From a virus, in the IMG/VR virus record IMGVR_UViG_3300027687_000021, positions 1 through 43,632 of that record: 43,632 nucleotides of DNA. One strand, 5' to 3'. The notes under the pieces are model-generated. The model was not told the DNA's origin, searched no databases, and saw only the letters and a program-made list of their open reading frames with translations. Of the stretch, positions 24,950-43,282 are shown piece after piece (positions within the stretch are counted from its first letter, which is position 1; each line of letters starts with the position of its first letter). A program made the position numbers and the translations under genes.

Positions 24950-26524
24950 ATGGCTGCAACAATAGAAGTAAGTTACTTTAACTCTTTTTGGATAAAGAAG
25001 ATAGATTCGATAGTTGAGGTGAAGCCAAGCGTTTCAGAAATAGCAACAACAGCTGATAGTTCTACTCAAGAAATTAGTAATATAAATAGTTTTTTAGGTT
25101 ATGGACAAAGAGTTTTTGCTAAAGATGCCACTGGAGCAGATATACCTACATATCCTAGTAAAGTTTATTTAATAGGTGGTAGTGCTATAGGTGGAACAGT
25201 AGCTCCTTTCAACGTTATACTTTCACAACAAGTTAGTTTGACAGCTACGGATCAATTAATATTTGGAGAAATTGAAGATTTCACAGAAGTACCTAGACTG
25301 TACACAAGTGATGACAGTGATTGGTATGCTGAAGAGTCTAGAATAAGAGGTGGATACAATAACACAAACGTAGACTTAGGTGTTAAAGCTTATTTGGTTG
25401 AAGACGATCCTAGTCAAAACGATAGATTTAATTCTATGATATACTCTGGTATATTCAACTCAAGAACAGGTGTCAATAATACAAATCAGTTTTCAGTTGC
25501 TGAGTCTATAACCAGGAGCGTAGATCCTTCTTATGGGTCCATACAAAAACTTTATGCGGAAGACACTAACTTAGTTATATTTCAAGAATTAAAAGTAAGT
25601 AAAGCATTGATAGATAAAGATGCTATTTATACTCAAGAAGGTCAACCATTACAAGCTGCTTCTAACGTAGTTATAGGTGGTATAGTTCCTTATGCAGGTG
25701 AATATGGTATAAGTACTAACCCTGAATCATTTGCTAAGTTTGGTTATAGAAAATACTTTGTAGATAAAAACAAAAATTTAGTACTAAGATTGTCTCAGGA
25801 CGGGATAACAGAAATATCAATGTATGGTATGGTTGATTACTTTAGAGATAACCTATCTAACATTGGCAGTTCTGATCCTTTGCGGGGTGGTTATGATATG
25901 CACAACAAACAATATGTCGTAAGTTTTAAAGGTAACGCTAATACTCTATCTTTTGATGAAACAGTTAAAGGCTGGACTAGTAGGTTTAGCTATTTTCCAG
26001 ACCAAATAGGTAGTTTAAGAAATAACTTTTACACGTATAACAAAGGAGAGATATGGAAACATTATTCTACCTCAGCAGATAGAGCTGAGTTTTATGGTGT
26101 GAATTACGCTTCTAGTGTTACTTTGGTTTTAAACCCAAGTCCGTCAATGGTTAAAAATTTCACAACAATAAACTATGAAGGCAGTGCCGGTTGGACTATT
26201 CCAGAAAATGGTATAGTAACTGATCAAGATACAGGTTTGCAAATATCAATATATCAATTACCAACTACCTTAGCTGATTTAGAAAGCTCTTTGTTCACTA
26301 ACAACTTTAAAAAGAAAGAAAATAAATACTTTGCCAACATAGTTAATGTGTCAGCACTGCAACCTGGAGAGGTTATATTTGGTCAAACAATGACAGGCGT
26401 GAAAGGATTTACTTCTCAAGTAATATTCTCATCACCACTAGATGCAAACGGAAATGCAATACCACAAGGTAACGCTTTAGAGTTATTTGCCGTATCATCT
26501 AACTTCAATCAATCATCTTATTAA
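24950..26524 (+). CDS. Tail protein, probable second nozzle component
   Basis: This 524-residue beta-rich protein contains MIYSGIFNSRTGVNNTNQF, ESITRSVDPSYGSIQKLYAEDTN, KVSKALIDKDAIYTQEG and GEYGISTNPESFAKFGYRKYF, blocks conserved in marine phage tail proteins. In relatives I recall such blocks in the same polypeptide as the propeller segment of the preceding gene, so the pair may be a split nozzle. The centre (YFVDKNKNLVLRLSQDGITEI, YDMHNKQYVVSFKG) reads as WD-like propeller blades, and the C-terminus is Gly/Asn-rich beta. There are no catalytic motifs. It starts 32 bp after the large tail gene with an A-rich leader. Confidence 0.75.
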   Translation: MAATIEVSYFNSFWIKKIDSIVEVKPSVSEIATTADSSTQEISNINSFLGYGQRVFAKDATGADIPTYPSKVYLIGGSAIGGTVAPFNVILSQQVSLTATDQLIFGEIEDFTEVPRLYTSDDSDWYAEESRIRGGYNNTNVDLGVKAYLVEDDPSQNDRFNSMIYSGIFNSRTGVNNTNQFSVAESITRSVDPSYGSIQKLYAEDTNLVIFQELKVSKALIDKDAIYTQEGQPLQAASNVVIGGIVPYAGEYGISTNPESFAKFGYRKYFVDKNKNLVLRLSQDGITEISMYGMVDYFRDNLSNIGSSDPLRGGYDMHNKQYVVSFKGNANTLSFDETVKGWTSRFSYFPDQIGSLRNNFYTYNKGEIWKHYSTSADRAEFYGVNYASSVTLVLNPSPSMVKNFTTINYEGSAGWTIPENGIVTDQDTGLQISIYQLPTTLADLESSLFTNNFKKKENKYFANIVNVSALQPGEVIFGQTMTGVKGFTSQVIFSSPLDANGNAIPQGNALELFAVSSNFNQSSY

Positions 26525-26953: not shown

Positions 26954-27886
26954 ATGGCAGCAGTAGCAGCAATTGGCGCAGCGGTATCAGTAGTAGGTGG
27001 TGCTGTTTCAGCAAATCAAGCAAGTAAGGCCGGCGACAGAGCAGGTAGAAATGCTCAAAGAGCAAGACAAGAAATTGCAGCTATAAAAGCTGCTCGTATA
27101 CCTATCACTAATCCGTATGCTGGTCAAACAGACTTGTCTGGTTTAGCTGAAAACTTATCAGGAATGATGAGTAATCCTTTTGCTAACATGGGTGTAGCAA
27201 CACAAGCTGCTGAAATAAAAATGGAACAAGCTGATATAGCTTTAGCAAACACCTTGGATACTATAAAATCCACGGGAGCCGGAGCTGGTGGAGCAACCGC
27301 GTTAGCACAAGCTGCTTTAGCTAGTAAGAAAGGTGTTGCAGCAGATATTGAAACACAAGAAGCTAAGAACGAACAATTAAGAGCTCAAGGTGAACAACAA
27401 TTACAAGCAATGGAAATAGCTGAAGAACAAAGAATGCAAGCTACTCAAATATCAGAGGGTCAAAGATTACAAGCGGGTGAAGCAGCTGGTCAACAATTTG
27501 TAATGAACATGACAGAAGCTAGATCAAATGCCGACCTAGGGTATGAAGCTGGTAATTTAGCCAATGCTCAACAGGCTGCGGCTAACGCATCGGCGGCAGA
27601 AGCTGGAGCTTGGGGTTCTGCAATATCAGGCGTAGCAGGTATAGCTTCATCTGCCATGGCAATACCACCAAGTGATAGGCGTTTAAAGAAAAATATAAAA
27701 CTTATAAGCAAATCTAATAATGGTTTAAATATATACGCTTTTGAATATATAGATAAAATATTTGGTGAAGGTGTTTTTCAAGGAGTTATGTCTGATGAAA
27801 TACCAACAACCGCTGTTATTAAAGGTAAAGATGGATATGATCGTGTAGATTATTCTAAGCTTGATGTTGAATTTAAAAATATATAA
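26954..27886 (+). CDS. Internal virion protein candidate with C-terminal S74-like chaperone module
   Basis: The 310-residue protein is Ala/Gln-rich and helical for 235 residues (starting with a hydrophobic AVAAIGAAVSVVGGAVSAN, then helices with QASKAGDRAGRNAQRAR and repeated EQRMQATQIS-type units), resembling T7 gp14-like inner proteins. Residues 240-310 (SDRRLKKNIKLI to the end) match the intramolecular chaperone and self-cleavage module of the S74 family. S240 and K245 have the Ser-Lys spacing of the known catalytic dyad, and GVMSDEIP and RVDYSKLD follow. The module is short for the family. Fusion to an internal protein rather than a fibre is unusual. Cleavage before S240 would release the Ala-rich part. 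Confidence 0.75.
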   Translation: MAAVAAIGAAVSVVGGAVSANQASKAGDRAGRNAQRARQEIAAIKAARIPITNPYAGQTDLSGLAENLSGMMSNPFANMGVATQAAEIKMEQADIALANTLDTIKSTGAGAGGATALAQAALASKKGVAADIETQEAKNEQLRAQGEQQLQAMEIAEEQRMQATQISEGQRLQAGEAAGQQFVMNMTEARSNADLGYEAGNLANAQQAAANASAAEAGAWGSAISGVAGIASSAMAIPPSDRRLKKNIKLISKSNNGLNIYAFEYIDKIFGEGVFQGVMSDEIPTTAVIKGKDGYDRVDYSKLDVEFKNI

Positions 27887-27888
27887 CC

Positions 27889-29655
27889 ATGAGCGCATAC
27901 GATAATCCTAAATTAATAAACGATCAATCTGCTTTGGCTTGGGCAGCTGCAGCTCAACAGGTGAGTAGTGCTCTGGTTAGTGGTTATGATAAAATTGTAA
28001 AATTTCAAAACGATCAAAAAGCAATAGCTGATAAGAAACAAGAAGTGTTTGACCTGGCATGGAACGCGCAATCATTATCTCAAAACGAAATCTTAGCACA
28101 GACTACAGAGCAGTTAGAAGATGCTGGAGTACAAAATAGCATTATATTAAACGCTCAAGACATTCAAACAAAACTAATGAATGGAGTAGGTAAAGAAGGT
28201 GATGAAGATTATCAAATGGGTTCTATAGAAGCAGCTACTATACTAAAAACTAGAAGTGTAAGCAAAGAAGAAAGAGAGAAAATAAATGATATAATAACAA
28301 AAGCTAATTCAAACTTAAGAGCTACTACTAAAACAGCTGGAATATTAATGACCGATGTTGGTCAGATAGAACCATTCAAGGACACGCCAGGGCCCGGCAG
28401 AGAACAGTTTTGGCAAGGAAATACTTTTTCAGAACAACTAGGTAGTCAGTTAGCTGGATTCACATTAGCAAACATGAATTCAGATGGTATAAAGTTAGAT
28501 AAAAAAGAATTAACACTAAACGACAGGGGTGATCAAATGTTAACAGTTGTTAATACAGTATCAAAAGATAATCCAATAATTAAAAAATGGGGTATTGATA
28601 TCAATAGCAATAATTTTGATCCAATAGTAGGTAGAAGTGCAGATAAATCAAATTCTTTTAAAGTAAATGACGATGGATCTGTGACATTTACTTTTAAAAA
28701 AAATATGAGTAAGTGGAATGGTGATTTGCTAAAAGAAACTGAAAAAGCTACTGATTACAAAACAATGATGGTGGATCAAAAAATACTAGATGGTAGTGAT
28801 TTAGCTGAAGGGTTTTCTACATATCTTCCTGAACTAGTAACTAGTAGCAATAACGGTAGAACACAAGTTCAAACTAGAGAGTTTGTAGACATTAAAAAAA
28901 TAGATTCAATTATGACCGGTGAGTTGGTAGGAAGACTTGAAATCTTATACAGCTTACCGCCTAGCGAAAAAAAAGCCTATATGGAACAACGTCTAGGTCT
29001 AGGTGAAGTTGATATAAATAAGTTTGCAATGCTGGGCAAAGATAGACAGCAGGAGTGGTTGAGAATTGCTGAGTTAGGAAAAATGCGAGAGCAGTTTGGA
29101 TTAACATCTACGGAAGGTGTAGATGATTTACAACAAAGAATAAACCCTATTACTAATAAAAAATACACAGAAGAAGAAGCAAAAGAGCATCTAAATCAAT
29201 TGCCTGGTTTTAATATGAAGCGTGTGCTAATAGACGAAGACTTACTTGAAGAAATGACAACAGCAGGAGTAGTAGGTTATCAGAAAGGTGAATATGCTTA
29301 TTTTGAAACGTCAGCACCAAAATCAATGCAAAAACCTAAACCTGCCGCTGACACTAGCGCTATAAATACTTATAGAAGAAAACAATCAGGTTTACTTCTA
29401 GACCCTACTTCAACAAAGCAAATTCAAGGTAACAAGTATGGGTATGGATCTCCAGTATCAAAAATAATCGTTTTTGATGATGCTACTAAATCTTGGATGG
29501 CGAAAAGGCTAGTAACTTCTAGGGCTTCAGTAAATGAAGATGGTGTTACAATTTCTAAATCGAAAAGTTCTTGGGAGAACGCTATGGATAATCCTTTATT
29601 AAAAGATATTGACCCAAAAAACAAAGCAGCTTTCTCTGATTGGTTAGGCTATTAA
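27889..29655 (+). CDS. Internal virion protein candidate (588 residues)
   Basis: This mostly helical 588-residue protein starts YDNPKLINDQSALAWAAAA and continues with long helices including KAIADKKQEVFDLAWNAQ. A central part is mixed (GREQFWQGNTFSEQLGSQLAGF; NSFKVNDDGSVTFTFKKN). A C-terminal helix-rich segment follows with INPITNKKYTEEEAKEHLNQ. The position between the S74-bearing protein and the giant matches the gp14-gp15-gp16 order of T7-like internal cores, so an ejection-core role is inferred. There is no catalytic motif. It begins 2 bp after the previous gene. Confidence 0.65.
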   Translation: MSAYDNPKLINDQSALAWAAAAQQVSSALVSGYDKIVKFQNDQKAIADKKQEVFDLAWNAQSLSQNEILAQTTEQLEDAGVQNSIILNAQDIQTKLMNGVGKEGDEDYQMGSIEAATILKTRSVSKEEREKINDIITKANSNLRATTKTAGILMTDVGQIEPFKDTPGPGREQFWQGNTFSEQLGSQLAGFTLANMNSDGIKLDKKELTLNDRGDQMLTVVNTVSKDNPIIKKWGIDINSNNFDPIVGRSADKSNSFKVNDDGSVTFTFKKNMSKWNGDLLKETEKATDYKTMMVDQKILDGSDLAEGFSTYLPELVTSSNNGRTQVQTREFVDIKKIDSIMTGELVGRLEILYSLPPSEKKAYMEQRLGLGEVDINKFAMLGKDRQQEWLRIAELGKMREQFGLTSTEGVDDLQQRINPITNKKYTEEEAKEHLNQLPGFNMKRVLIDEDLLEEMTTAGVVGYQKGEYAYFETSAPKSMQKPKPAADTSAINTYRRKQSGLLLDPTSTKQIQGNKYGYGSPVSKIIVFDDATKSWMAKRLVTSRASVNEDGVTISKSKSSWENAMDNPLLKDIDPKNKAAFSDWLGY

Positions 29656-29671
29656 ATTAAAATAAATTTTT

Positions 29672-32600
29672 ATGAATTATTTTGATCCCTCAACTGGGAG
29701 TATATTAACATACGAGCAAATCGTAACAGAAGCAGGTACTACTCCAGTAGCTGAATACATGTTACAGAAAGGTTATCAAGAACTAGGGGATGATTTTACA
29801 TCACCTGGGAATGAACCCGACATTATTGTTGAAGAAGTAAATTTTCAACCAGCTGCTGCAACGGAGACGGATGCAAGTGTAGTAGCGATAGATCCGATGG
29901 CATCCAACGATATGGGATTAGGGCCGGGAGATGGTTCTTTGGAATCACTCACAAAAAAGTATAACCCTGAAGAACTTTACAAAGAATTAAAAGAAGCTAA
30001 AAAAGCTCTAGCTGAATTAGAAGTTGCTAATGGTAGAAATCTAGGTGGTGGTGGAATGGTTGCTTTAAGTAAAGTAGCTGCTCAATTCAATGCCGCAGAA
30101 AATAGAATAAAATCTGCTACAGAGAAAATAAAGCAATCAGACATGAATCAAAACGTGCCTGAAACTTTAATAGAAAAAGGAGACGAAGAACTAATTGGTT
30201 TTCTAAGAGAAAACTACCCTGGTATTGTTTTTGAAAACAACTCTAGTTTCCTAGACGATACTATATCTTTTAGAGCTAACGGTGAAGATATAAAACTAGA
30301 CATAAATCCTATATCTGACAAAGGTGAAAAGCAGTTTTACGAAAACTATAATAAATTACTAGAATACGACAAGGCTGTAAAAGCTAATGACGTAGCTCAA
30401 CAAGGGGCTTTTTCTAATATAATGAATGCTTTTGACAGTGGAGCTATAAATGCAAAAGATGTTAACGAGAGACTAGAAAAAACTGGTTATACATTTGAGC
30501 CTATATTAAGCGATGTTGGTGCAACTGTAGGTTACGAATTAATACAAGACGGAAAAGTTGTTGCTACAGATAATTTTTTAGATCAAGCAGTACACACGCA
30601 GAGTAAGGGTAGAAAAGGTGAAACAAATAACATAGAGGACTATATATCAAGTAGTTTTACCACGCAAGAAACTAGTGATGCTTTTGGTACACTATACCCT
30701 TTATTTTCTTCTCATTTAAAAAATCTAAGTATAGAAGAAAACGAAAGAATAGAAAAAGTAAATAGTACACCTGACGAAAAACTATTTAATTATGATTCTT
30801 TTTCAGAAATATTTGGAAAACTAAAAGACGTTGATAAACTAGACTTCACAGGATTAGAAAGAAAAGCAATACAATACATGCTTAGCACATCTAATCCAGC
30901 TCAAATTGAAGAGCAAGGAGAGGACGAGTTAACTATATTTGGATACCAAGAAGGCGATAGAACTAGTTTAACACCTGAACAACAACTTGAATACGTTAGA
31001 GATTTACAAGGGTTTAATGATGCAAACTTGAGTATGTTTGAAGGTTTAGATGTTGAACTTTTAAAAGAAAAGCTACAAGCTAACAACCTGTGGTCTAATG
31101 CTGTGGATTATTCTATAAAAGCAAAACGTGAAGAATCTATAGCTATAGCTAAACAAACTGCAGCTGAAAGTATTATGTATGGTTATGATAGAAGAGAAAG
31201 AGAGTTTATTAGAATCTCTCAGCTAGGCCAACAAGCTGGTTATGACAAAATAAAAGATGAAATACTAGCTGACAAAGAAGTAATACAAAACTACAACAAC
31301 ACAACAAGCTCTATAATAAACGGTGAATTACAAAGAATAGTTAATAAGCTAGGCGACATGCCAGCTAAGCTTGATTATATAAAAACAACCGGCGTTGATG
31401 ATAGCTTATTTTTTAGCTTAAAACCATCAGGAGATTTAACACCTGAGCAACAAGTTGGTTTTGATGAAGCTAAGCTTGATATATTTAATTTACAAAAAAC
31501 ATTAAGCAGGCTTGATTCTGACTATACTAAAACGGTGCAAAACTATGTAGGCCATGTATCTGACGCACAGCAATATAAAGATAGTCTTAATGTTGTTGTT
31601 GGTCAAGATGACAAAGGTAAGGACATTGTAAAAAATGGATTAACAGAGTTTTCTAATATATTTAAAGAATACGGAGTAGGTAATTTAATAGCTAAAGATT
31701 TTACAGATGCTACTTATGGTATTTTATTAGCTTTACCAACCTTGGTTAACTCTGACTGGGCCATAGAGGAACAGAAGGCGTTACAAAGAAAAGAAGAATA
31801 CTATAAAACAGCTTTAGCTTACGATGACGCGTGGGGAGAAGGTGAATTTGGATTGTACTCATTGAGAACTTTATCTCAACAAGCCCCTAATATCATTTTA
31901 GCAATAGGAACTGGCGCCGCTGGTAACGCTATTGGCTTAGGTGCTTCTGCTGCTCAATGGTCTATAGCTAGTACTTTTGGTATAACATCAGGTACTGACA
32001 TGTATCGTACGCTTAGCACTCAAGCAGATCTTTTAACCGCAGCTGAAGATCAAAGAGACTTTTTAAATAAAATGTGGGAAGCTGGAAGAATAGATCAATT
32101 TGATTACACACAAGGTCTTTTAGATGCTGAAAAAACAATTGCAATGGGATCAATGACTCCATTTCAAATTGCATCTGCATCTGTAGCTACTGGTATAATA
32201 GAAGGTGGAGTTACACGGTATATAGGTTCTGCTAGTAACACTTTTAAATTTTTAAAAGATGTAAAAGGTCAGGGTCAAATAAACATATACAATCTATTTA
32301 ATAAACCTAGCTTAAACGCTTGGGGTTCATTTATAGGTGAGGGAGCTAAAAGAATTGGTGGTGAACTAGTAGAAGAGAATACTATATATGGTTTAACACA
32401 AGGTATATCTGAAGCAGCTATATTACAGAGAGATGCTGATTGGTCTCAGTTCGATGATACAACCTTAGCGACTCTTATAACAGCCGGTATGGCTAACACA
32501 TCTGGTATAGCTACATCTGCTATGACTCAAATGGCAGCTACTAAAAACTTTAAAGAAAAAATAAACAAAGCTACTTCTGAAATACAAGAAATGGTTACGT

Positions 32601-35600
32601 TGATGAATGGACCTGGCATGACTGAATCTCAAAGAGAAATCTTTACAGTTGCTATAAAAGAAAAGCTTATAGAAATAGGTATGGAGCAGAACTCTTTAGG
32701 AGTAGATGTTATAGCTTTAGGTGCTGATCAAGTTACAAGCTTAGTAGGGTTAAATGTTTTAAAAAATACTCTGTACGAACAAGCAGGTGTGAAACCTGAT
32801 ATGACCGCTGAGCAAGCTCAACAACAACTAGATAAATATAAAGAAGCAACGTTAACTACAGAAGAAGCTGAAAGGTTTGATCAAAATCTAAACTCTGTAG
32901 AGAGCAATATAAACTCTGTAAAAGAAGGACCAAAAAACTACGACAGAGTAGAAGAGTTATTAGGGGATGCCGGTAAGAAAGCTAGGGAAAACTTAGATAA
33001 CAATACACCAGAATGGAATGGTAAGTTAGATAGAAGACAAGAACTAGCCGCTGTAATAGACGAGATGCACAGGATAACAAACGAATCGTATGTTAACAAA
33101 GCTAAAGCAGATCCTAATATAGAAAATGAATGGAACGAAGTTAAGTCAAAAGGTGACGAAAAATACATAGGGCCTAGACCTAAAGGTGAATTAGATTCTC
33201 AAAAAGAAAACTTCTATAGAATAAAAGGTAAACAACTTTTCGCTCAAGACAATAGAATCATTACGACAAGCACTGATATAGACTATAAAGCTGACATGCT
33301 TTTAACTAAAGAAAATGTTAATAATCTACAGATAATAGAAATACCAGAAGTTGATGATCAAATTTCTTATTTATATGATTTAGTAGAGCAGGGTAAATTA
33401 CCGTTTGATGCTGTGGCTGGTATTAAAGAAGGCTTAGAAGAAGGTGGAAATGGTTTTATAGTTGATAATCAATACATAGTTACCGACAAAAAAGCAGCTG
33501 AAGAGGCTTTATTAAATGGAGACATAAGAGCTGGAGTAGTTACTTACCATGAAATTGGTCACGCTATTGATAATACTTATTTTGAAACTCCGGAACAATT
33601 TAATAAATATGCTGAGAGTTTATATAACGCAGTTTCTAATAGCAGTAACTTATCTCTAGTGGCTTTACACAACGAGGTAGAAGGCGCGCTTACTAATCCT
33701 GATTCTCCTTACTACGATGATGCAACTGACAAAGATGGTAATTTATTACCTTTTGCTTCTAGAAGTGATACTTATAAAGATGAGTACACGAAGGAAATGC
33801 AAAGTTTATCTTATGCATATGAAAAAGAATTAAAACTAGAGGACAAATACGGGACTGAAAGTATTTTATCTAAGTTAAGTAATAGAATAGGTGTTGGATT
33901 AAAAGTAAACACTCCAGAGCAAGCGTTAAGCTACATGATTGGAAACAACGCTGCTTTCAGAAGAGGTGAATTTACTAGTCAAGTAAGAGCTAAAATTGGA
34001 AAAGAAGGTATTAAAACTACTAAAGGAAAACAATCATCTTTAAGTATAGCTGGTACGATAAACAAAAAATTTGAGAACGATACTAACTTCACGCCTATAA
34101 CATCTAAGCAAGTAGATGAAATGGTAAACAAAGTTTCTAGTAGAGCTTGGTCTAGATTTGGCAGTGGAGTACCGCTTAATATAAGAGAAGTACATTACAA
34201 TAGAAAAACATATCTAGATCATGCTAAAAGTAAGCTTCGTGAAATAGCTTTAAAATGGAATCCTTCATTAGGTACTTTTCCTAGTTTTATGGCGAATAGA
34301 GGAATGCAGAGAGCTAATGCCTTTGCTACAGAACTAGGTGTACCAAAAGGAAAAGCTAATGTTAGGATAGGCGAAGATAATGCAGCTGAAAACATACAGT
34401 CAACAGACAATACAGAAGCCTTAAACAAAAGAGCCGAAGCAGAAGCAACAGAGGTAACTCCCGCTTTAAAGAACAAATTAAAAGGTAAAAATATTCCTGA
34501 TTTAGTTAGTAAAATAAATAAAAATCTAAAAAAAGAAATAAAATATAAACTACCAAAATACAACGCCGACACTACTACTAAGCAAAAAACAGATTTTGTA
34601 AAAGAGTTAGGTAAGGGAATGCAGGTATCTTTTAAAGATGTTATTGATTCGATGGGTGCTCGTAATAAAACCATTGATCAGTACGAAACATTTTTAAACG
34701 AAAACTACGCAAGTCTATTAGGTCCAAACGGACTAACAACAACCTACCTTTCTAAAGCTTTTCCTCAAGCCATTGAGAAATATGTTAACGGTATGGGCTG
34801 GGTTAAGTATGACAAATGGAAAGGTAGAAAAAAGGGTACAGGAAAAGGTGAAATAGATTTTTACAATTCTACCGAACTAGGCCCAATGACTGGTAGTACT
34901 GCTGGTAACCAAAAAATTCGTAGAGTAAAAGATATTAAGAATGCAATACCTTTAGCTAAGTTTAAATCTAAATACATACAGCTTGATGGTAAAAATCTAA
35001 AAATACCTCAAATGCCTACAGAAGCTTTAGCTAAACAGATAGCTCAAGAAATAGGCTTAGATATTTTTAATGAAGAAATTCAGGATGTAGATAGTGATAT
35101 TAGAAATGAATTTGTTGAAAGACAAAAGCTTTTTGGAGCTGATATTTTAGACAACTATGTTGAGCAATTAATGTATGATGTTTCTAGACCTAGCATTAAA
35201 AACCAATTAGCTTTATTTAGTGATCCACAGAGAACCAATTGGTTAGGTAATAGATTTAGATTTTATGAAGAGGTTAAAAAAATAGACCTTCAGTCTCTGA
35301 ACTCAACACAAATAACTAGTAAATTAAAAAATGCTCACAAAGGTGTTTACGGAGATACTTTTACGGACGAAGAGCATTTAGGTGTTGCTAAGCAGTTTGG
35401 CAAACTTCTTACGCCTCAAAGAAAAACAGGAGTATTACAAACAAAGCAAGAATGGTTTGATTACTTAGAAACAGTTATAACAAATGTAGATAACATAGAG
35501 ACTGTAGTTGGATACACAGGTGCTACGCAGGCGAATTCTGTTTCTCTTAGAGATATGAGTACTATGCAAAGCGCTAGAGACTTTGTAGAGATTAATTTGT

Positions 35601-38600
35601 ACAAAGCATTAAAAGCTCGTTATGGTTCTGAAAAAGCTTTAGACATGATGGTTGCGTTTGTTCCACCGTCCTTTAGTAACGGCATGAAGAAAGCAGGTGG
35701 TTTTACACCTCAACCAAACAATACTTTACTTCGTAATTCTTCTGATATGAGCGTAAGAGCAGGTATCTTTGGAGATATGTCTGACACTCTTAGATTAATT
35801 CAAAGAATAGACGACGGGGTTGTAAGCATTAGTGATAAAACTATAAAGTTTAACGATGGAAGACCTGATAGAAAAGTAGATATAAATACTAGTGCAGATG
35901 TTTTAATGCAGTATGTAAACGGTAAGTTTGAAAAAAGCAAAGAAAACACTGAAGATAAAGACGGTAACACAGTAGTGTCTTTACAAAATAAAAACAAATT
36001 AGATGCTGATTTAGCTTGGAACTTTTTTATAGACTTTGTAAAGGCTTTAAAATCTTCAGGAGTAGATAATAACACTGTTTCATTACTAATGGGTGTTATG
36101 AATGGTAGTAATAATAGTGCACTTAGATTAGGTGCTCCGGTGTGGGGTAGATCTACTGTAATGGGTTATGATACTTTAAAAATTCCAAAAGTAAGAAACG
36201 GTAAAGTAGAAAAACATAAAAAAGGGAAAAAGAAAGGTGAAGTAATTTATGAACCAGCTTATAGATACGAGCACGCTATACCTGCTAGAGCTGTTTTGTT
36301 TTTTGCATATGAATCTATATTCAATGGTAACAAAGAAATTGATTTAGACTTACTTAAAGACGACTACAGGGTTACTATAATTCCGGTTAAAGAAATGGAT
36401 AATATCCTGGGCAATACAGGCTTTACACAGTCAATGCTTATAGGTTATCAACCAGGAAAACAAGAATGGTGGAAAAGATATTACAACATATTTACAAAAG
36501 GTAAAATGCCTTTTGGTTTACAGTCTTATGAGAGTGGTGACGTTGTAGGTCAAGAGTTTGAAGATTTTTACAATGAAACAAACGGAACACCTGGTGTTTC
36601 TTTAGACGCTCAGCAAGTTATAGATAAAAACAACAACGCTGATATAGCGATGGAAGCTGCTAGGAATAGTATTGAATATTCTAGAAAAATAAGAAAAATA
36701 AGAATATTTGATTTTGATGATACATTAGCTCAGTCTAATAGTATGGTAATAGTAAACATGCCAGATGGTACAACTTCTAAAATTAACGCTACAACTTTTG
36801 CAAAAGACGCTGCGAGGCTAGAAGCTGAAGGGGCTGAGTTTGATTTTACAGAGTTTAGTAAAGTTGTTGAAGGTAGAAAAGGACCACTGTTTGATGTTGC
36901 TAAAAAAATACAAGACGTTAGAGGATCAGAAGATATATTTGTATTAACAGCTAGACCTCAAAACGCAGCTAGACCTATACAAGAATTCTTATCTTCAATA
37001 GGATTAGATATACCTATTCAAAACATAACAGGTTTAGCAGACGGAAAAGCTCAAGCTAAAGCTGATTGGGTTATAAATAAATTCGCCGAAGGTTACAATG
37101 ACTTTTATTTTACAGATGACGCTGTTAAAAATGTAAAAGCCGTTAAAGATGCTCTTGATGTTTTAGATGTTAAGTCCAAAGTTCAAATAGCTAGAATTCA
37201 ATTTCAAAAAGACTTAGATTTTGAGTTCAATAAAATGATTGAAAGAAATAAAGGTGTTGATGTAAATAAAAGATATTCAGAGGTTGTTGCGCAAAGATTA
37301 GGTAAGGATAAAAAACGTTTTAATTTATTTATACCTCCTTCTGCTGATGACTTTAGAGGTTTAACAATGTATATGTTTGCCGGTAAAGGTAAACAAGGAG
37401 AGCTAGATCAAGACTTTTTTGACAAAGCTTTAATAAAACCCTATACATCTGGTATAAACGCTATTGAGTTAGCTAAGCAAAGGGTTTCTAATGATTATAG
37501 AGCTTTGATGAGTAATTTTCCAGAGCTTAAGAAGATATTAAGAAAAAAAATAACAGGTCAACAGTATACTTATGATGAAGCTGTTAGAGTGTATCTGTGG
37601 GATAAGCAAGGTGCTTCAGTACCTGGTATATCTAAAAGAGATCAAGCTAACTTAGTTAGAATAATTAGAGAAGATCCAAACCTACAATCATTTGCTGATG
37701 GCGTTTTGCTTATAACTAAAAAAGATTCTTATATAGATCCACCTAACTATTGGCAAGGACAAACTATAATAGGCGATCTAAATACAATAACTACTAAAGT
37801 AAATAGATCTGAATATATAAAAGAATTTATTACAAATGTTGATATTATATTTAGTGAACAAAACTTAGTAAAAATAGAAGCCGTATATGGCTCAAGAGTA
37901 AGAGAGTCTATAGAGAATTCTATATTTAGAATGAAAAATGGAACAAATAGAACTAGTGGTAATGACCGACAAACCAATATGTGGTATAATTGGTTAAATA
38001 GATCTATTGGTGCTATAATGTTTTTTAATAGAAGATCAGCCATACTTCAACTTATATCTAGTGTTAACTTTATAAACTGGAGCGATAACAATCCTTTTAT
38101 GGCTGGTAAAGCATTTGCTAATCAAACACAGTATTGGTCTGATGTAGTAATGTTATTTAACTCTAGCAAATTAAAACAACGTAGAGCAGGTTTAAAAGGT
38201 GATGTTAATGAAGCTGAAATAGCGGCTGCTGTAAAAGGTTCTAAAAACAAAATGGGTACTTTTATAAGTATACTATTAAGAAATGGATTTGTTTTTACAC
38301 AGGTAGCAGATAGTGTTGCTATAGCAACAGGTGGTGCTACATTCTATAGAAATAGAGTAAATACATATAAAAAACAAGGGCTAGACCAGGCTGAAGCTGA
38401 AAAAAGAGCTTTTCAAGACTTTTCTAATACTGCTGAAGAATCTCAACAGTCAGCTGATCCAATGATGATATCTCAACAGCAAGCAGGTTTCTTAGGTAGA
38501 TTTATATTGTCTTTTCAAAATACGCCTATGCAATATACTAGGCTTATGAAAAAAGCTGGCTTAGATATTATCAATGGTCGAGGAGATCTTAAAACTAATA

Positions 38601-39475
38601 TATCAAAAATAGTTTATTACGGATTTGTGCAAAATCTAATATTCTCTGTATTACAGAATTCTTTATTTGCTTTAATACCAGGATTTGATGAGCCAGACGA
38701 TGAGTTGACAGAAGAAGAACAGTTAGAAAAATACAATCAAGTATTAAGTAAAAAAGAAGATAGAATAATAAACGGAATGCTTGACACTGTTTTAAGAGGA
38801 TCAGGTGTTGCTGGAGCTGTTATATCTACTGTAAAAAATGCCATAAGAAGATATGATTACGAAGAAGAAAAAGGATTTACAGCTGATCATACTTACACTA
38901 TATTAGAATTAGCTAATTTATCCCCTGCATTAGGTTCTAAATTAAGAAAAATATACTCCGCAATACAAACTAGAAAGTTTGAAAAAGATGTTATAGCTGA
39001 GCAAGGTTTTAGTGTAACTATTGATGGAAAGTTTCAATTAAGTCCCGCCTACCAAGTAGTAGGAGACGTTGCTTCTGGTGCGGCTAATATACCTTTAGAT
39101 AGACTAGTAGCTGAAATAAACGCTATAACAGAATCTTTTGACAATAGGAATACTAACTATCAAAGAATAGCCTTAGCTTTAGGTTATAGAAATTGGGATG
39201 TTAATGCTAAAATAGAAGAATTTGATTTAATCAAAGTTGAAGGAAAAGAAAGAAGAAAAGAAGAAGGTAAAATTAAAGCAAAGGAAACGAGAGAAAGAAA
39301 GAAAGAAGAAAAAGCAAGACTTAGAAAAGTAAAGCGAGATAAATACGAAGCTATGAGTGCTGGTGATAAGTTAGAATATGATTTAAAAAAAGATAAAGAG
39401 TTGCAAGGTAAAATAGATGGAGCATTGGAAAAAGCTTTAGAAAAAATAGACAAACTTTATGGAACTGATTTCTAA
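29672..39475 (+). CDS. Giant internal virion (polyvalent-type) protein with zincin and HAD phosphatase modules
   Basis: The 3267-residue protein occupies almost a quarter of the window, in the place of the T7 gp16-like ejection protein. In order: a helical N-terminus; Ala/Gly-rich hydrophobic segments near 741-775 (LAIGTGAAGNAIGLGASAA) and 828-855; HEIGH at 1293-1297 (metallopeptidase zincin); and a complete HAD phosphatase set, D2347-F-D2349-DT (motif I), T2426 in VLTARP (II), K2459 or K2463 (III) and DD2482-2483 (IV). Near 2919 comes AEESQQSADPMMISQQQ then FQNTPMQYTRLMKKAG, recurrent in marine phage inner proteins. A highly charged Lys/Arg/Glu helix spans 3189-3230. It is best read as a multi-enzyme protein carried in the head and ejected with DNA. 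The substrates of the enzymatic parts are unknown. Confidence 0.85.
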   Translation: MNYFDPSTGSILTYEQIVTEAGTTPVAEYMLQKGYQELGDDFTSPGNEPDIIVEEVNFQPAAATETDASVVAIDPMASNDMGLGPGDGSLESLTKKYNPEELYKELKEAKKALAELEVANGRNLGGGGMVALSKVAAQFNAAENRIKSATEKIKQSDMNQNVPETLIEKGDEELIGFLRENYPGIVFENNSSFLDDTISFRANGEDIKLDINPISDKGEKQFYENYNKLLEYDKAVKANDVAQQGAFSNIMNAFDSGAINAKDVNERLEKTGYTFEPILSDVGATVGYELIQDGKVVATDNFLDQAVHTQSKGRKGETNNIEDYISSSFTTQETSDAFGTLYPLFSSHLKNLSIEENERIEKVNSTPDEKLFNYDSFSEIFGKLKDVDKLDFTGLERKAIQYMLSTSNPAQIEEQGEDELTIFGYQEGDRTSLTPEQQLEYVRDLQGFNDANLSMFEGLDVELLKEKLQANNLWSNAVDYSIKAKREESIAIAKQTAAESIMYGYDRREREFIRISQLGQQAGYDKIKDEILADKEVIQNYNNTTSSIINGELQRIVNKLGDMPAKLDYIKTTGVDDSLFFSLKPSGDLTPEQQVGFDEAKLDIFNLQKTLSRLDSDYTKTVQNYVGHVSDAQQYKDSLNVVVGQDDKGKDIVKNGLTEFSNIFKEYGVGNLIAKDFTDATYGILLALPTLVNSDWAIEEQKALQRKEEYYKTALAYDDAWGEGEFGLYSLRTLSQQAPNIILAIGTGAAGNAIGLGASAAQWSIASTFGITSGTDMYRTLSTQADLLTAAEDQRDFLNKMWEAGRIDQFDYTQGLLDAEKTIAMGSMTPFQIASASVATGIIEGGVTRYIGSASNTFKFLKDVKGQGQINIYNLFNKPSLNAWGSFIGEGAKRIGGELVEENTIYGLTQGISEAAILQRDADWSQFDDTTLATLITAGMANTSGIATSAMTQMAATKNFKEKINKATSEIQEMVTLMNGPGMTESQREIFTVAIKEKLIEIGMEQNSLGVDVIALGADQVTSLVGLNVLKNTLYEQAGVKPDMTAEQAQQQLDKYKEATLTTEEAERFDQNLNSVESNINSVKEGPKNYDRVEELLGDAGKKARENLDNNTPEWNGKLDRRQELAAVIDEMHRITNESYVNKAKADPNIENEWNEVKSKGDEKYIGPRPKGELDSQKENFYRIKGKQLFAQDNRIITTSTDIDYKADMLLTKENVNNLQIIEIPEVDDQISYLYDLVEQGKLPFDAVAGIKEGLEEGGNGFIVDNQYIVTDKKAAEEALLNGDIRAGVVTYHEIGHAIDNTYFETPEQFNKYAESLYNAVSNSSNLSLVALHNEVEGALTNPDSPYYDDATDKDGNLLPFASRSDTYKDEYTKEMQSLSYAYEKELKLEDKYGTESILSKLSNRIGVGLKVNTPEQALSYMIGNNAAFRRGEFTSQVRAKIGKEGIKTTKGKQSSLSIAGTINKKFENDTNFTPITSKQVDEMVNKVSSRAWSRFGSGVPLNIREVHYNRKTYLDHAKSKLREIALKWNPSLGTFPSFMANRGMQRANAFATELGVPKGKANVRIGEDNAAENIQSTDNTEALNKRAEAEATEVTPALKNKLKGKNIPDLVSKINKNLKKEIKYKLPKYNADTTTKQKTDFVKELGKGMQVSFKDVIDSMGARNKTIDQYETFLNENYASLLGPNGLTTTYLSKAFPQAIEKYVNGMGWVKYDKWKGRKKGTGKGEIDFYNSTELGPMTGSTAGNQKIRRVKDIKNAIPLAKFKSKYIQLDGKNLKIPQMPTEALAKQIAQEIGLDIFNEEIQDVDSDIRNEFVERQKLFGADILDNYVEQLMYDVSRPSIKNQLALFSDPQRTNWLGNRFRFYEEVKKIDLQSLNSTQITSKLKNAHKGVYGDTFTDEEHLGVAKQFGKLLTPQRKTGVLQTKQEWFDYLETVITNVDNIETVVGYTGATQANSVSLRDMSTMQSARDFVEINLYKALKARYGSEKALDMMVAFVPPSFSNGMKKAGGFTPQPNNTLLRNSSDMSVRAGIFGDMSDTLRLIQRIDDGVVSISDKTIKFNDGRPDRKVDINTSADVLMQYVNGKFEKSKENTEDKDGNTVVSLQNKNKLDADLAWNFFIDFVKALKSSGVDNNTVSLLMGVMNGSNNSALRLGAPVWGRSTVMGYDTLKIPKVRNGKVEKHKKGKKKGEVIYEPAYRYEHAIPARAVLFFAYESIFNGNKEIDLDLLKDDYRVTIIPVKEMDNILGNTGFTQSMLIGYQPGKQEWWKRYYNIFTKGKMPFGLQSYESGDVVGQEFEDFYNETNGTPGVSLDAQQVIDKNNNADIAMEAARNSIEYSRKIRKIRIFDFDDTLAQSNSMVIVNMPDGTTSKINATTFAKDAARLEAEGAEFDFTEFSKVVEGRKGPLFDVAKKIQDVRGSEDIFVLTARPQNAARPIQEFLSSIGLDIPIQNITGLADGKAQAKADWVINKFAEGYNDFYFTDDAVKNVKAVKDALDVLDVKSKVQIARIQFQKDLDFEFNKMIERNKGVDVNKRYSEVVAQRLGKDKKRFNLFIPPSADDFRGLTMYMFAGKGKQGELDQDFFDKALIKPYTSGINAIELAKQRVSNDYRALMSNFPELKKILRKKITGQQYTYDEAVRVYLWDKQGASVPGISKRDQANLVRIIREDPNLQSFADGVLLITKKDSYIDPPNYWQGQTIIGDLNTITTKVNRSEYIKEFITNVDIIFSEQNLVKIEAVYGSRVRESIENSIFRMKNGTNRTSGNDRQTNMWYNWLNRSIGAIMFFNRRSAILQLISSVNFINWSDNNPFMAGKAFANQTQYWSDVVMLFNSSKLKQRRAGLKGDVNEAEIAAAVKGSKNKMGTFISILLRNGFVFTQVADSVAIATGGATFYRNRVNTYKKQGLDQAEAEKRAFQDFSNTAEESQQSADPMMISQQQAGFLGRFILSFQNTPMQYTRLMKKAGLDIINGRGDLKTNISKIVYYGFVQNLIFSVLQNSLFALIPGFDEPDDELTEEEQLEKYNQVLSKKEDRIINGMLDTVLRGSGVAGAVISTVKNAIRRYDYEEEKGFTADHTYTILELANLSPALGSKLRKIYSAIQTRKFEKDVIAEQGFSVTIDGKFQLSPAYQVVGDVASGAANIPLDRLVAEINAITESFDNRNTNYQRIALALGYRNWDVNAKIEEFDLIKVEGKERRKEEGKIKAKETRERKKEEKARLRKVKRDKYEAMSAGDKLEYDLKKDKELQGKIDGALEKALEKIDKLYGTDF

Positions 39476-41387: not shown

Positions 41388-43106
41388 TTACCCATCACAA
41401 GCCAAACAATCTTCATTCATTGCCGTGGCTGCAATATCACCTCGCAAAACACTTTCTGTTCTAGTATAATACAAAGTCTTTACTCCATTTTTCCAAGCAT
41501 CAAAATGTACTTTATTTAGCCACTTAGGTGTTGCTTCACTAGGAAAAGCTAGGTTTAAACTAACCGATTGATCTATATATTGCTGCCTTAAACCTGCTTG
41601 ATTAACTAACTCTAGTTGATTAATCTCTTTAAAAGTTTTAAAAACTTCTTTAGCCGGTATGTCATGTCCAACTGTAATATCATCAAGCTCACTGATATCT
41701 TGAACTGAACCTCCGTCAGCCAATATTTTATTCCAAATTTCATTTGTATTTAATTTATGTTTTCTTAATAACTTAACTAAAGTTGGATTTTTCCTAATGA
41801 AGGTTCCATTTGCTCCCTGCTCTGTGAAAACGTTTGCAGCCCAAGGTTCTATTCCTGGCGAAACATTTCCCGAAAGCTTACTATTACTAACAGTGGGAGC
41901 AACAGCACGCAAATGAGTATTACGCATACCAGTGCCAGCGCACCACAGAGGTTCACCGTATGTCTCAGCAAGAGCCATAGATGCTCTTTCACTTTCAATT
42001 TTAATTTGTGAAAATATTTTCCTAGTTTCAAACTGAGATAATAAACCTTCAAAAGGAATGCTTTTTTCTTGGAGATACGTGTGCCATCCGAGGACTCCCA
42101 AGCCCAATGCCCTTCCTTTTTGAGCTGATCGTATAGCATTCTCGAAGCCTCTAAGTCCTTTGGCTTTTTGAATAAATTCTTCCATAACGCCATCAAGAAA
42201 CCAAGTGGTGTCGTATATAATATTAGTGTCTTTCCATTCTTCATATTTCGCTAAATTTAATGATGACAAACAACATACAAAACTATGGTTTTCATCTGTG
42301 TGTAATGCTATTTCACTGCATATATTAGTCATATGGACTTTTAATCCGTTGTCTTTATATGCTTTTGGATTTGCTTTGTTAACGTTTCCTTTAAACATAA
42401 TATAAGGTTCGCCAGTTGCTTTTCGCTTCCTAAGTAATTTGGACCATCTATTTCTAGCGTCTGCATCTCCTTGTTCAAGCTTACGCATAAACTTATCACC
42501 AACAACTGCGCATTGATGTAAGTTAAGTGATTGTCTGTTGACGTCTCCTTTAGGTTCTCTAATTTCAAGCCATTCGTCGAAATCGTCGTGTTCAATATTG
42601 ATGTTAACTGAGGCTGCGCCTCGTCTAACTGATCCTTGATTAGTTGCAAGGATCGTGCTGTCATAGATCTTGCAAAAAGGTACGACTCCGTCTGATGTTC
42701 CATTTCCTGTTATTGTTGCGCCAGCGGGTCTGATTTGATTAATACCAATGCCAACTCCACCGCCGTGCTTAGCGAGTAGCATCATTTCTAAATTCTTTTG
42801 TCCTATATCCTGTATAGAATCAGCTACATCTATACCAAAACAGCTAATAGGCAAGCCGCGATCAGTACCGGTGTTAGATAGTACAGGGCTAGCAAGACAC
42901 AGCCAACCGTTCCAGATATACTCGAAGAATGTTTCTGCCATTTCTGGTTTGAATAATCTACGAGCAACTGTTTTACTGACGCGTATGTATGCTTCTTTAG
43001 GACTTTCTCCGTCAAATAAATATCCCCCGGATATAGTCTTCTTGTATACGTCTGTATTACCCCACGAAGGGTAATCTTCTCCTTTAATCCATTTTTCATT
43101 CCACAT
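41388..43106 (-). CDS. nrdA: Class I ribonucleotide reductase, alpha (catalytic) subunit
   Basis: The preferred start is the ATG at 43106 (MWNEKWIKGEDYPSWGN), which overlaps the preceding stop by one base (TAATG) and gives 572 residues. An in-frame ATG at 43169 would add 21 residues inside the neighbour. Catalytic parts are present: C89 in LPISCFG, N261-x-C263-x-E265 in TNICSEI, C278/C279 in VCCLSSLNLA, the radical-transfer pair Y546-Y547 in TLYYTRTES, and a C-terminal redox pair C567-x-x-C570 (EDCLACDG). No N-terminal ATP cone is present, so dATP feedback at the activity site is probably missing, as in other short phage reductases. It supplies dNTPs for phage replication with a beta subunit. 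Confidence 0.93.
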   Translation of the reverse strand: MWNEKWIKGEDYPSWGNTDVYKKTISGGYLFDGESPKEAYIRVSKTVARRLFKPEMAETFFEYIWNGWLCLASPVLSNTGTDRGLPISCFGIDVADSIQDIGQKNLEMMLLAKHGGGVGIGINQIRPAGATITGNGTSDGVVPFCKIYDSTILATNQGSVRRGAASVNINIEHDDFDEWLEIREPKGDVNRQSLNLHQCAVVGDKFMRKLEQGDADARNRWSKLLRKRKATGEPYIMFKGNVNKANPKAYKDNGLKVHMTNICSEIALHTDENHSFVCCLSSLNLAKYEEWKDTNIIYDTTWFLDGVMEEFIQKAKGLRGFENAIRSAQKGRALGLGVLGWHTYLQEKSIPFEGLLSQFETRKIFSQIKIESERASMALAETYGEPLWCAGTGMRNTHLRAVAPTVSNSKLSGNVSPGIEPWAANVFTEQGANGTFIRKNPTLVKLLRKHKLNTNEIWNKILADGGSVQDISELDDITVGHDIPAKEVFKTFKEINQLELVNQAGLRQQYIDQSVSLNLAFPSEATPKWLNKVHFDAWKNGVKTLYYTRTESVLRGDIAATAMNEDCLACDG

Positions 43107-43282
43107 TATGTTAAATATAGTATTGTGTAGGCTATTGCTACGTTTAAATTTACTGCTACTAAGTTCCATTGTTTTGCCACAAACACTTGAGGTAATGATA
43201 GTATACCTGCAAGCATATATGTAAAAACTCCTATTTGATCGGGTAGTAAATGGGGAGACATCATCATAAATGCCGTCCCCAT
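43106..43282 (-). CDS. Small membrane protein (start uncertain)
   Basis: The conserved core is LANRLGYMGTAFMMMSPHLL then FTYMLAGILSLPQVFV and LVAVNLNVAIAYTILYL, that is three hydrophobic stretches. Homologous small phage proteins begin a few residues before 'NRLGY', but no usual start codon lies there. The ATG given here starts at MGTAFMMM and yields 58 residues; an ATG at 43378 or 43411 would include the core but overlap the upstream gene by 71 or 104 nt. The stop overlaps the reductase start (TAATG), which suggests coupling. A membrane role is likely; the function is unknown. Confidence 0.6.
   Translation of the reverse strand: MGTAFMMMSPHLLPDQIGVFTYMLAGILSLPQVFVAKQWNLVAVNLNVAIAYTILYLT

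Follow-up and report, generated by a model that had tools for sequence, protein, structure and literature searches.

Introduction

Polyvalent proteins, known from phages and conjugative elements, are very long multidomain proteins that combine a zincin hub domain with swappable enzyme domains and are presumed to be delivered at entry (PMC5512222). In the main text of that 2017 survey the terms haloacid, phosphatase, polynucleotide kinase and zeta toxin are absent. T4 Pnkp (PseT) is a free 301-aa enzyme in which a kinase is followed by a phosphatase. In crAss001 the cargo proteins gp45-gp50 are encoded after the muzzle gene, have been found in virions by mass spectrometry and were modelled as ejected with partial unfolding, the large ones being RNA-polymerase-related (PMC10172136). 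Elemovirus gp18 (3694 aa), Cellulophaga phi18:3 gp123 and phi38:1 gp101 are also giants, each closing its structural operon; the annotation comes from virion MS/MS for phi18:3 gp123 and from similarity for phi38:1 gp101, and Elemovirus gp18 is listed as a structural protein.

The gene described here occupies the same position in a viral contig (IMG/VR record IMGVR_UViG_3300027687_000021; the window is the whole stretch analysed, 43,632 nucleotides). Its product shows those features of polyvalent proteins that can be examined in sequence: a zincin, a HAD domain and a C-terminal module lie in one long polypeptide, and among homologues HAD, kinase, DUF6934-like and ART-like modules vary at one slot, one relative having a weak ART-PolyVal-like insert. 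It differs from polyvalent proteins in that the HAD, with or without a kinase, usually fills one fixed slot across the family. As in T4 Pnkp, the HAD motifs are in register and some relatives join kinase and phosphatase in one polypeptide, but the giants embed the HAD in a larger protein, and those with a kinase mostly have it between motifs I and II of the HAD. The window also has a gene with the crAss muzzle C-terminal domain, whereas sequence-level searches of Pfam, PHROG and PDB with the giant gave no match to an N4 or crAss virion RNA polymerase domain.

Results

Genome context of the giant gene

By terminase and portal identity the window virus is closest to Manatee Spring podovirus (63% and 49%), next to Flavobacterium Elemovirus (43% and 40%) and then to Cellulophaga phages. 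The giant is the last gene of the structural operon, lying after muzzle-type and weakly gp14-like genes and before a peptidase M15 gene (Table 1). The muzzle gene was present in all eight relatives having enough upstream DNA and 55 of 84 had the gp14-like gene. PF25729, the C-terminal domain of the crAssvirus muzzle, is encoded here by a podovirus whose relatives are Elemovirus and Cellulophaga phages. Elsewhere in the window are a phage GroEL gene at 684-2237 (phrog_5725, 1.7e-135), as in Elemovirus and phi38:1, and a ribonucleotide reductase large-subunit gene at 41388-43169 on the minus strand (593 aa, phrog_84).

Table 1. Positions in the window of the giant gene, its domains and motifs, and neighbouring genes of the structural operon
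Feature	Position	Strand	Basis
Muzzle-type tail gene, crAss_MUZ_C at residues 378-464	24950..26524	+	Pfam PF25729, E 6.1e-11, above cut-off
Structural protein gene, weak N-terminal T7 gp14 similarity	26954..27886	+	phrog_6121 virion structural protein, 1.2e-13; T7_gp14, E 0.0071, below cut-off
588-aa gene directly upstream of giant, candidate second cargo protein	27889..29655	+	Position only; no weighty family match
Giant cargo/polyvalent-type protein gene, 3267 aa	29672..39475	+	Single open frame; about 100 distinct IMG/VR relatives
Zincin-like metallopeptidase domain, residues ~1200-1400	33269..33871	+	HExxH and invariant Glu in 99 relatives
HEIGH (1293-1297), predicted two zinc ligands and general base	33548..33562	+	HExxH in 99/108 giants and in 68/68 giants retrieved by C-terminal module
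E1371, candidate third zinc ligand	33782..33784	+	Glu column 99/99; shuffles at most 44/99
HAD phosphatase domain, residues 2337-2511, Pnkp 3'-phosphatase-like	36680..37204	+	phrog_415, E 1.2e-7; hhalign to Pnkp alignment, E 6.6e-7
HAD motif I, D2347-F-D2349 (nucleophile, acid/base)	36710..36718	+	Invariant in all relatives covering the motif
Cap position between motifs I and II (P2364/D2365), no insert in window giant	36761..36766	+	Insertion site in relatives: P-loop kinase, DUF6934-like or ART-like
HAD motif II, T2426 (LTAR)	36947..36949	+	104/104
HAD motif III, K2463	37058..37060	+	104/104
HAD motif IV, D2482-D2483	37115..37120	+	104/104
Conserved C-terminal module, residues 2560-3100; proposed packaging or docking part	37349..38971	+	About 100/108 giants; most conserved part of family

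A full-length homology search against the giants of the cultured relatives found a match for the zincin region only; neither the HAD nor the C-terminal module was detectable in the Elemovirus, phi18:3 and phi38:1 giants, so the MS/MS evidence carries over to the window giant by position only. By this synteny, the window giant is probably cargo of a marine podovirus particle, passed to the bacterium as infection starts.

An earlier sequence-only reading had described a single 3267-residue polypeptide, T7 gp16-like in position, with two enzyme modules and membrane-active regions. The frame is indeed unbroken from ATG to stop, and a two-enzyme giant of polyvalent type in a cargo or ejection position is upheld. 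The protein resembles T7 gp16 in its great size and in coming last, behind a gene with weak gp14 similarity, but searches of Pfam and PDB revealed neither a transglycosylase domain nor sequence similarity to gp16, and homology to it is not supported. Hydrophobic segments are moderate, the maximum 19-residue Kyte-Doolittle mean being 1.45 (residues 741-759), and membrane activity is thus not indicated.

Extent and layout of the giant family

At full length the window giant matched nothing in Pfam or, by sequence, in PDB; tblastn detected no similarity to it in a phage record collection, and two of its relatives found no match among 50,697 phage records. Relatives came from viral contig scans and were mostly giants of 2,100-3,600 aa (L-numbers below label relative giants or loci). 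Broad scans confirmed at least 520 relatives by the HAD and at least 583 by the C-terminal module, of which 80 were kept from each; the family is therefore large and the counts given here are samples. Slices of the window giant from about residue 2160 onward were detectable in 93-107 of 108 giants and most N-terminal slices in 8-19, a count biased by retrieval of most of this set via the HAD, whereas retrieval by the C-terminal module is independent of it. The chassis of the family consists of the zincin and the conserved C-terminal module, a layout that is new here. Family giants were also seen on MAG contigs binned as Aliivibrio (Ust_30: L142, L145 and L147), Woesearchaeota, Ilumatobacteraceae and others (including L144 and L146), which are probably misbinned phage contigs.

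A zincin-like site is conserved in the family

The HEIGH motif noted earlier at residues 1293-1297 is present, and the frequency of HExxH among the related giants (Table 1) compares with 0.004 per protein predicted from composition. Alignment of the downstream region alone placed a Glu in all 99 sequences at one column, whilst the best Glu column in eight shuffles reached 44 of 99. The zincin site in the window giant is well supported by this recurrence of HExxH together with the invariant Glu, the combination found in zincins of polyvalent type, where the Glu lies in a second helix; the corresponding helix in the window giant is putative. A zincin profile built from the giants and searched against six sequences detected the giants of the cultured Elemovirus (E 1.4e-12) and of the Manatee podovirus (E 1e-8), and one relative had a Pfam Peptidase_M78 match at 7e-4, just under cut-off. 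AlphaFold gave poor, uninformative models of the HAD region (mean pLDDT 41.8) and the zincin region (61), from shallow alignments of 6 and 8 close relatives.

Residues 1480-1620 (window 34109-34531) have a sigma-70 region-2-like look (ALKWNPSLGTFPSF), and relative L059 has Sigma70_r2 at 0.023; a sigma-70 region-2-like reading of residues ~1510-1560 was dropped, there being no Pfam sigma match there.

The HAD domain is related to T4 Pnkp 3'-phosphatase

The HAD superfamily motifs occur in order in the window giant (I DxD, II T/S, III K/R, IV DD). D2347, D2349, T2426, R2428, K2463 and D2482-D2483 are unvarying in the HAD-bearing relatives covering them (up to 104 sequences), and T2351 shows a single T-to-S change. 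Each residue previously proposed for this site (D2347, D2349, T2426, K2459 or K2463, D2482 and D2483) is present; K2463 is the conserved motif III lysine, whilst K2459, replaced by T in most relatives, is not the catalytic residue. That the zincin or HAD motifs arose by chance, neither domain being real, would fit the failure of the whole window protein to match Pfam or PDB sequences, but is contradicted by motif invariance over about 100 divergent giants, far past shuffles and composition, and we regard it as highly improbable.

Profile similarity to Pnkp 3'-phosphatase extends across the whole domain. The phrog_415 profile, which also finds T4 PseT in its phosphatase half (8.6e-26), aligns with the window HAD over profile positions 16-175 of 218 and is the best match for 21 of 23 members; because it also matches in all 14 cellular control genomes, as a HAD profile should, part of this signal is general HAD. 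Comparison by hhalign with eight Pnkp phosphatase halves put all four motifs in register, at a probability of 92% and a single-comparison E of 6.6e-7. Pfam matches were weak: the window HAD hit DUF2608 at 2e-4, and 3 of 23 members hit PNK3P at 0.03. These profile comparisons relate the HAD to the T4 Pnkp 3'-phosphatase family.

A variable slot accepts a nested kinase

The HAD usually ends about 50 residues ahead of the C-terminal module, and in one clade (L033, L035, L037 and L038) it lies about 700 residues upstream, ahead of the zincin. In the 68 giants retrieved by the C-terminal module, the slot before this module held a full HAD in 47, a HAD with nested kinase in one, a kinase without HAD in six, a partial HAD in one and neither in 13. 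Kinase-directed retrieval yielded 38 loci, some sharing one contig. About 30 of them have the kinase nested in the HAD between motifs I and II; it is located elsewhere in a giant that also carries a HAD in L189 and L192, and is present without a HAD in L187, L188, L195 and L197. A HAD with a kinase in the cap position is an unusual build for a kinase-phosphatase. The cap-position inserts of L040 (DUF6934-like) and L135 (ART-PolyVal-like) are both below cut-off. A weak DUF6934-like module is common to L246, L261, L040 and L043, being found ahead of the C-terminal module, within the HAD cap or past the HAD core depending on the giant. In a giant lacking the HAD (L264:8741-10000) the slot has PDVIFEYEGVPINWEIKKGK, which resembles a PD-(D/E)xK nuclease; Pfam gives this no support.

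This distribution bears on whether the main role of the giant is structural or that of an ejection channel, with the zincin (processing) and the HAD (assembly) acting as helpers in the producing cell. In favour, conservation is highest in the C-terminal module, and in N4 vRNAP and P1 DdrB zincin regions are tied to packaging or processing (PMC5512222). However, 20 of the 68 giants have no full HAD, six of these carrying a kinase there instead, and the HAD is shifted upstream in one clade and takes inserts, like swappable delivered enzyme domains; a helper role of this kind appears unlikely.

The P-loop kinase matches AAA_33 (1.5e-11) and Zeta_toxin (9.5e-11) in Pfam, the polynucleotide kinase profile phrog_505 (2.9e-13) and a zeta toxin in PDB (0.0076), and by these matches is equally zeta-toxin-like and polynucleotide-kinase-like. 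It is conceivable, if somewhat doubtful, that the HAD is instead a delivered small-molecule phosphatase for nucleotides, signalling nucleotides or phosphosugars, blunting nucleotide-based host defence or remodelling pools rather than acting on nucleic-acid ends. HAD subfamilies are hard to tell apart by sequence, weaker matches linked 21 of 23 members to DUF2608 and 9 of 23 to a phosphoheptose-type PHROG, and a sugar nucleotide is the substrate of zeta-toxin-type kinases. The 2H phosphoesterases of polyvalent proteins, too, are predicted to counter nucleotide signalling (PMC5512222). Against these points stand the predominance of the T4 Pnkp phosphatase family profile as best match and the pairing of the HAD with a polynucleotide-kinase-like domain. 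Host proteins, nucleic-acid 3' phosphates and nucleotides had all been left open as substrates in the sequence-only reading; given the match to the T4 Pnkp phosphatase family and the nesting of a kinase inside the HAD of relatives, nucleic-acid 3'-phosphates are now the favoured candidate.

Discussion

The explanation we prefer, at about even confidence, is a delivered cargo protein of polyvalent type whose HAD, of Pnkp 3'-phosphatase type, would heal nucleic-acid ends. The giant would be packaged with the ejection proteins, docked in the virion by its conserved C-terminal module, and delivered with or before the genome, as its synteny suggests. The zincin may then cut the giant into active pieces or attack host proteins. 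The HAD is predicted from its invariant catalytic residues to be an active phosphatase, and could strip 3'-phosphates from RNA or DNA ends left by host defence nucleases or by genome entry, after which such ends might be religated or extended. Relatives whose HAD has a kinase nested in it would combine 5'-kinase and 3'-phosphatase in a complete end-healing enzyme.

Across hundreds of related viruses the giants retain a zinc-protease site, usually together with a phosphatase akin to that with which T4 mends broken RNA and DNA ends, and these phages may thus bring an end-repair enzyme along. To our knowledge, T4-type end healing has been described only for an enzyme made after infection. Tentatively, a widespread class of marine phages may eject a pre-made end-healing enzyme, a 3'-phosphatase with a nested 5'-kinase in some, that would protect against nuclease-based immunity before phage gene expression. 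The claim of end healing concerns a 175-residue domain and is amenable to simple assays. If true, end healing would be virion-borne in hundreds of marine viral contigs, and repair or counter-defence would begin at entry.
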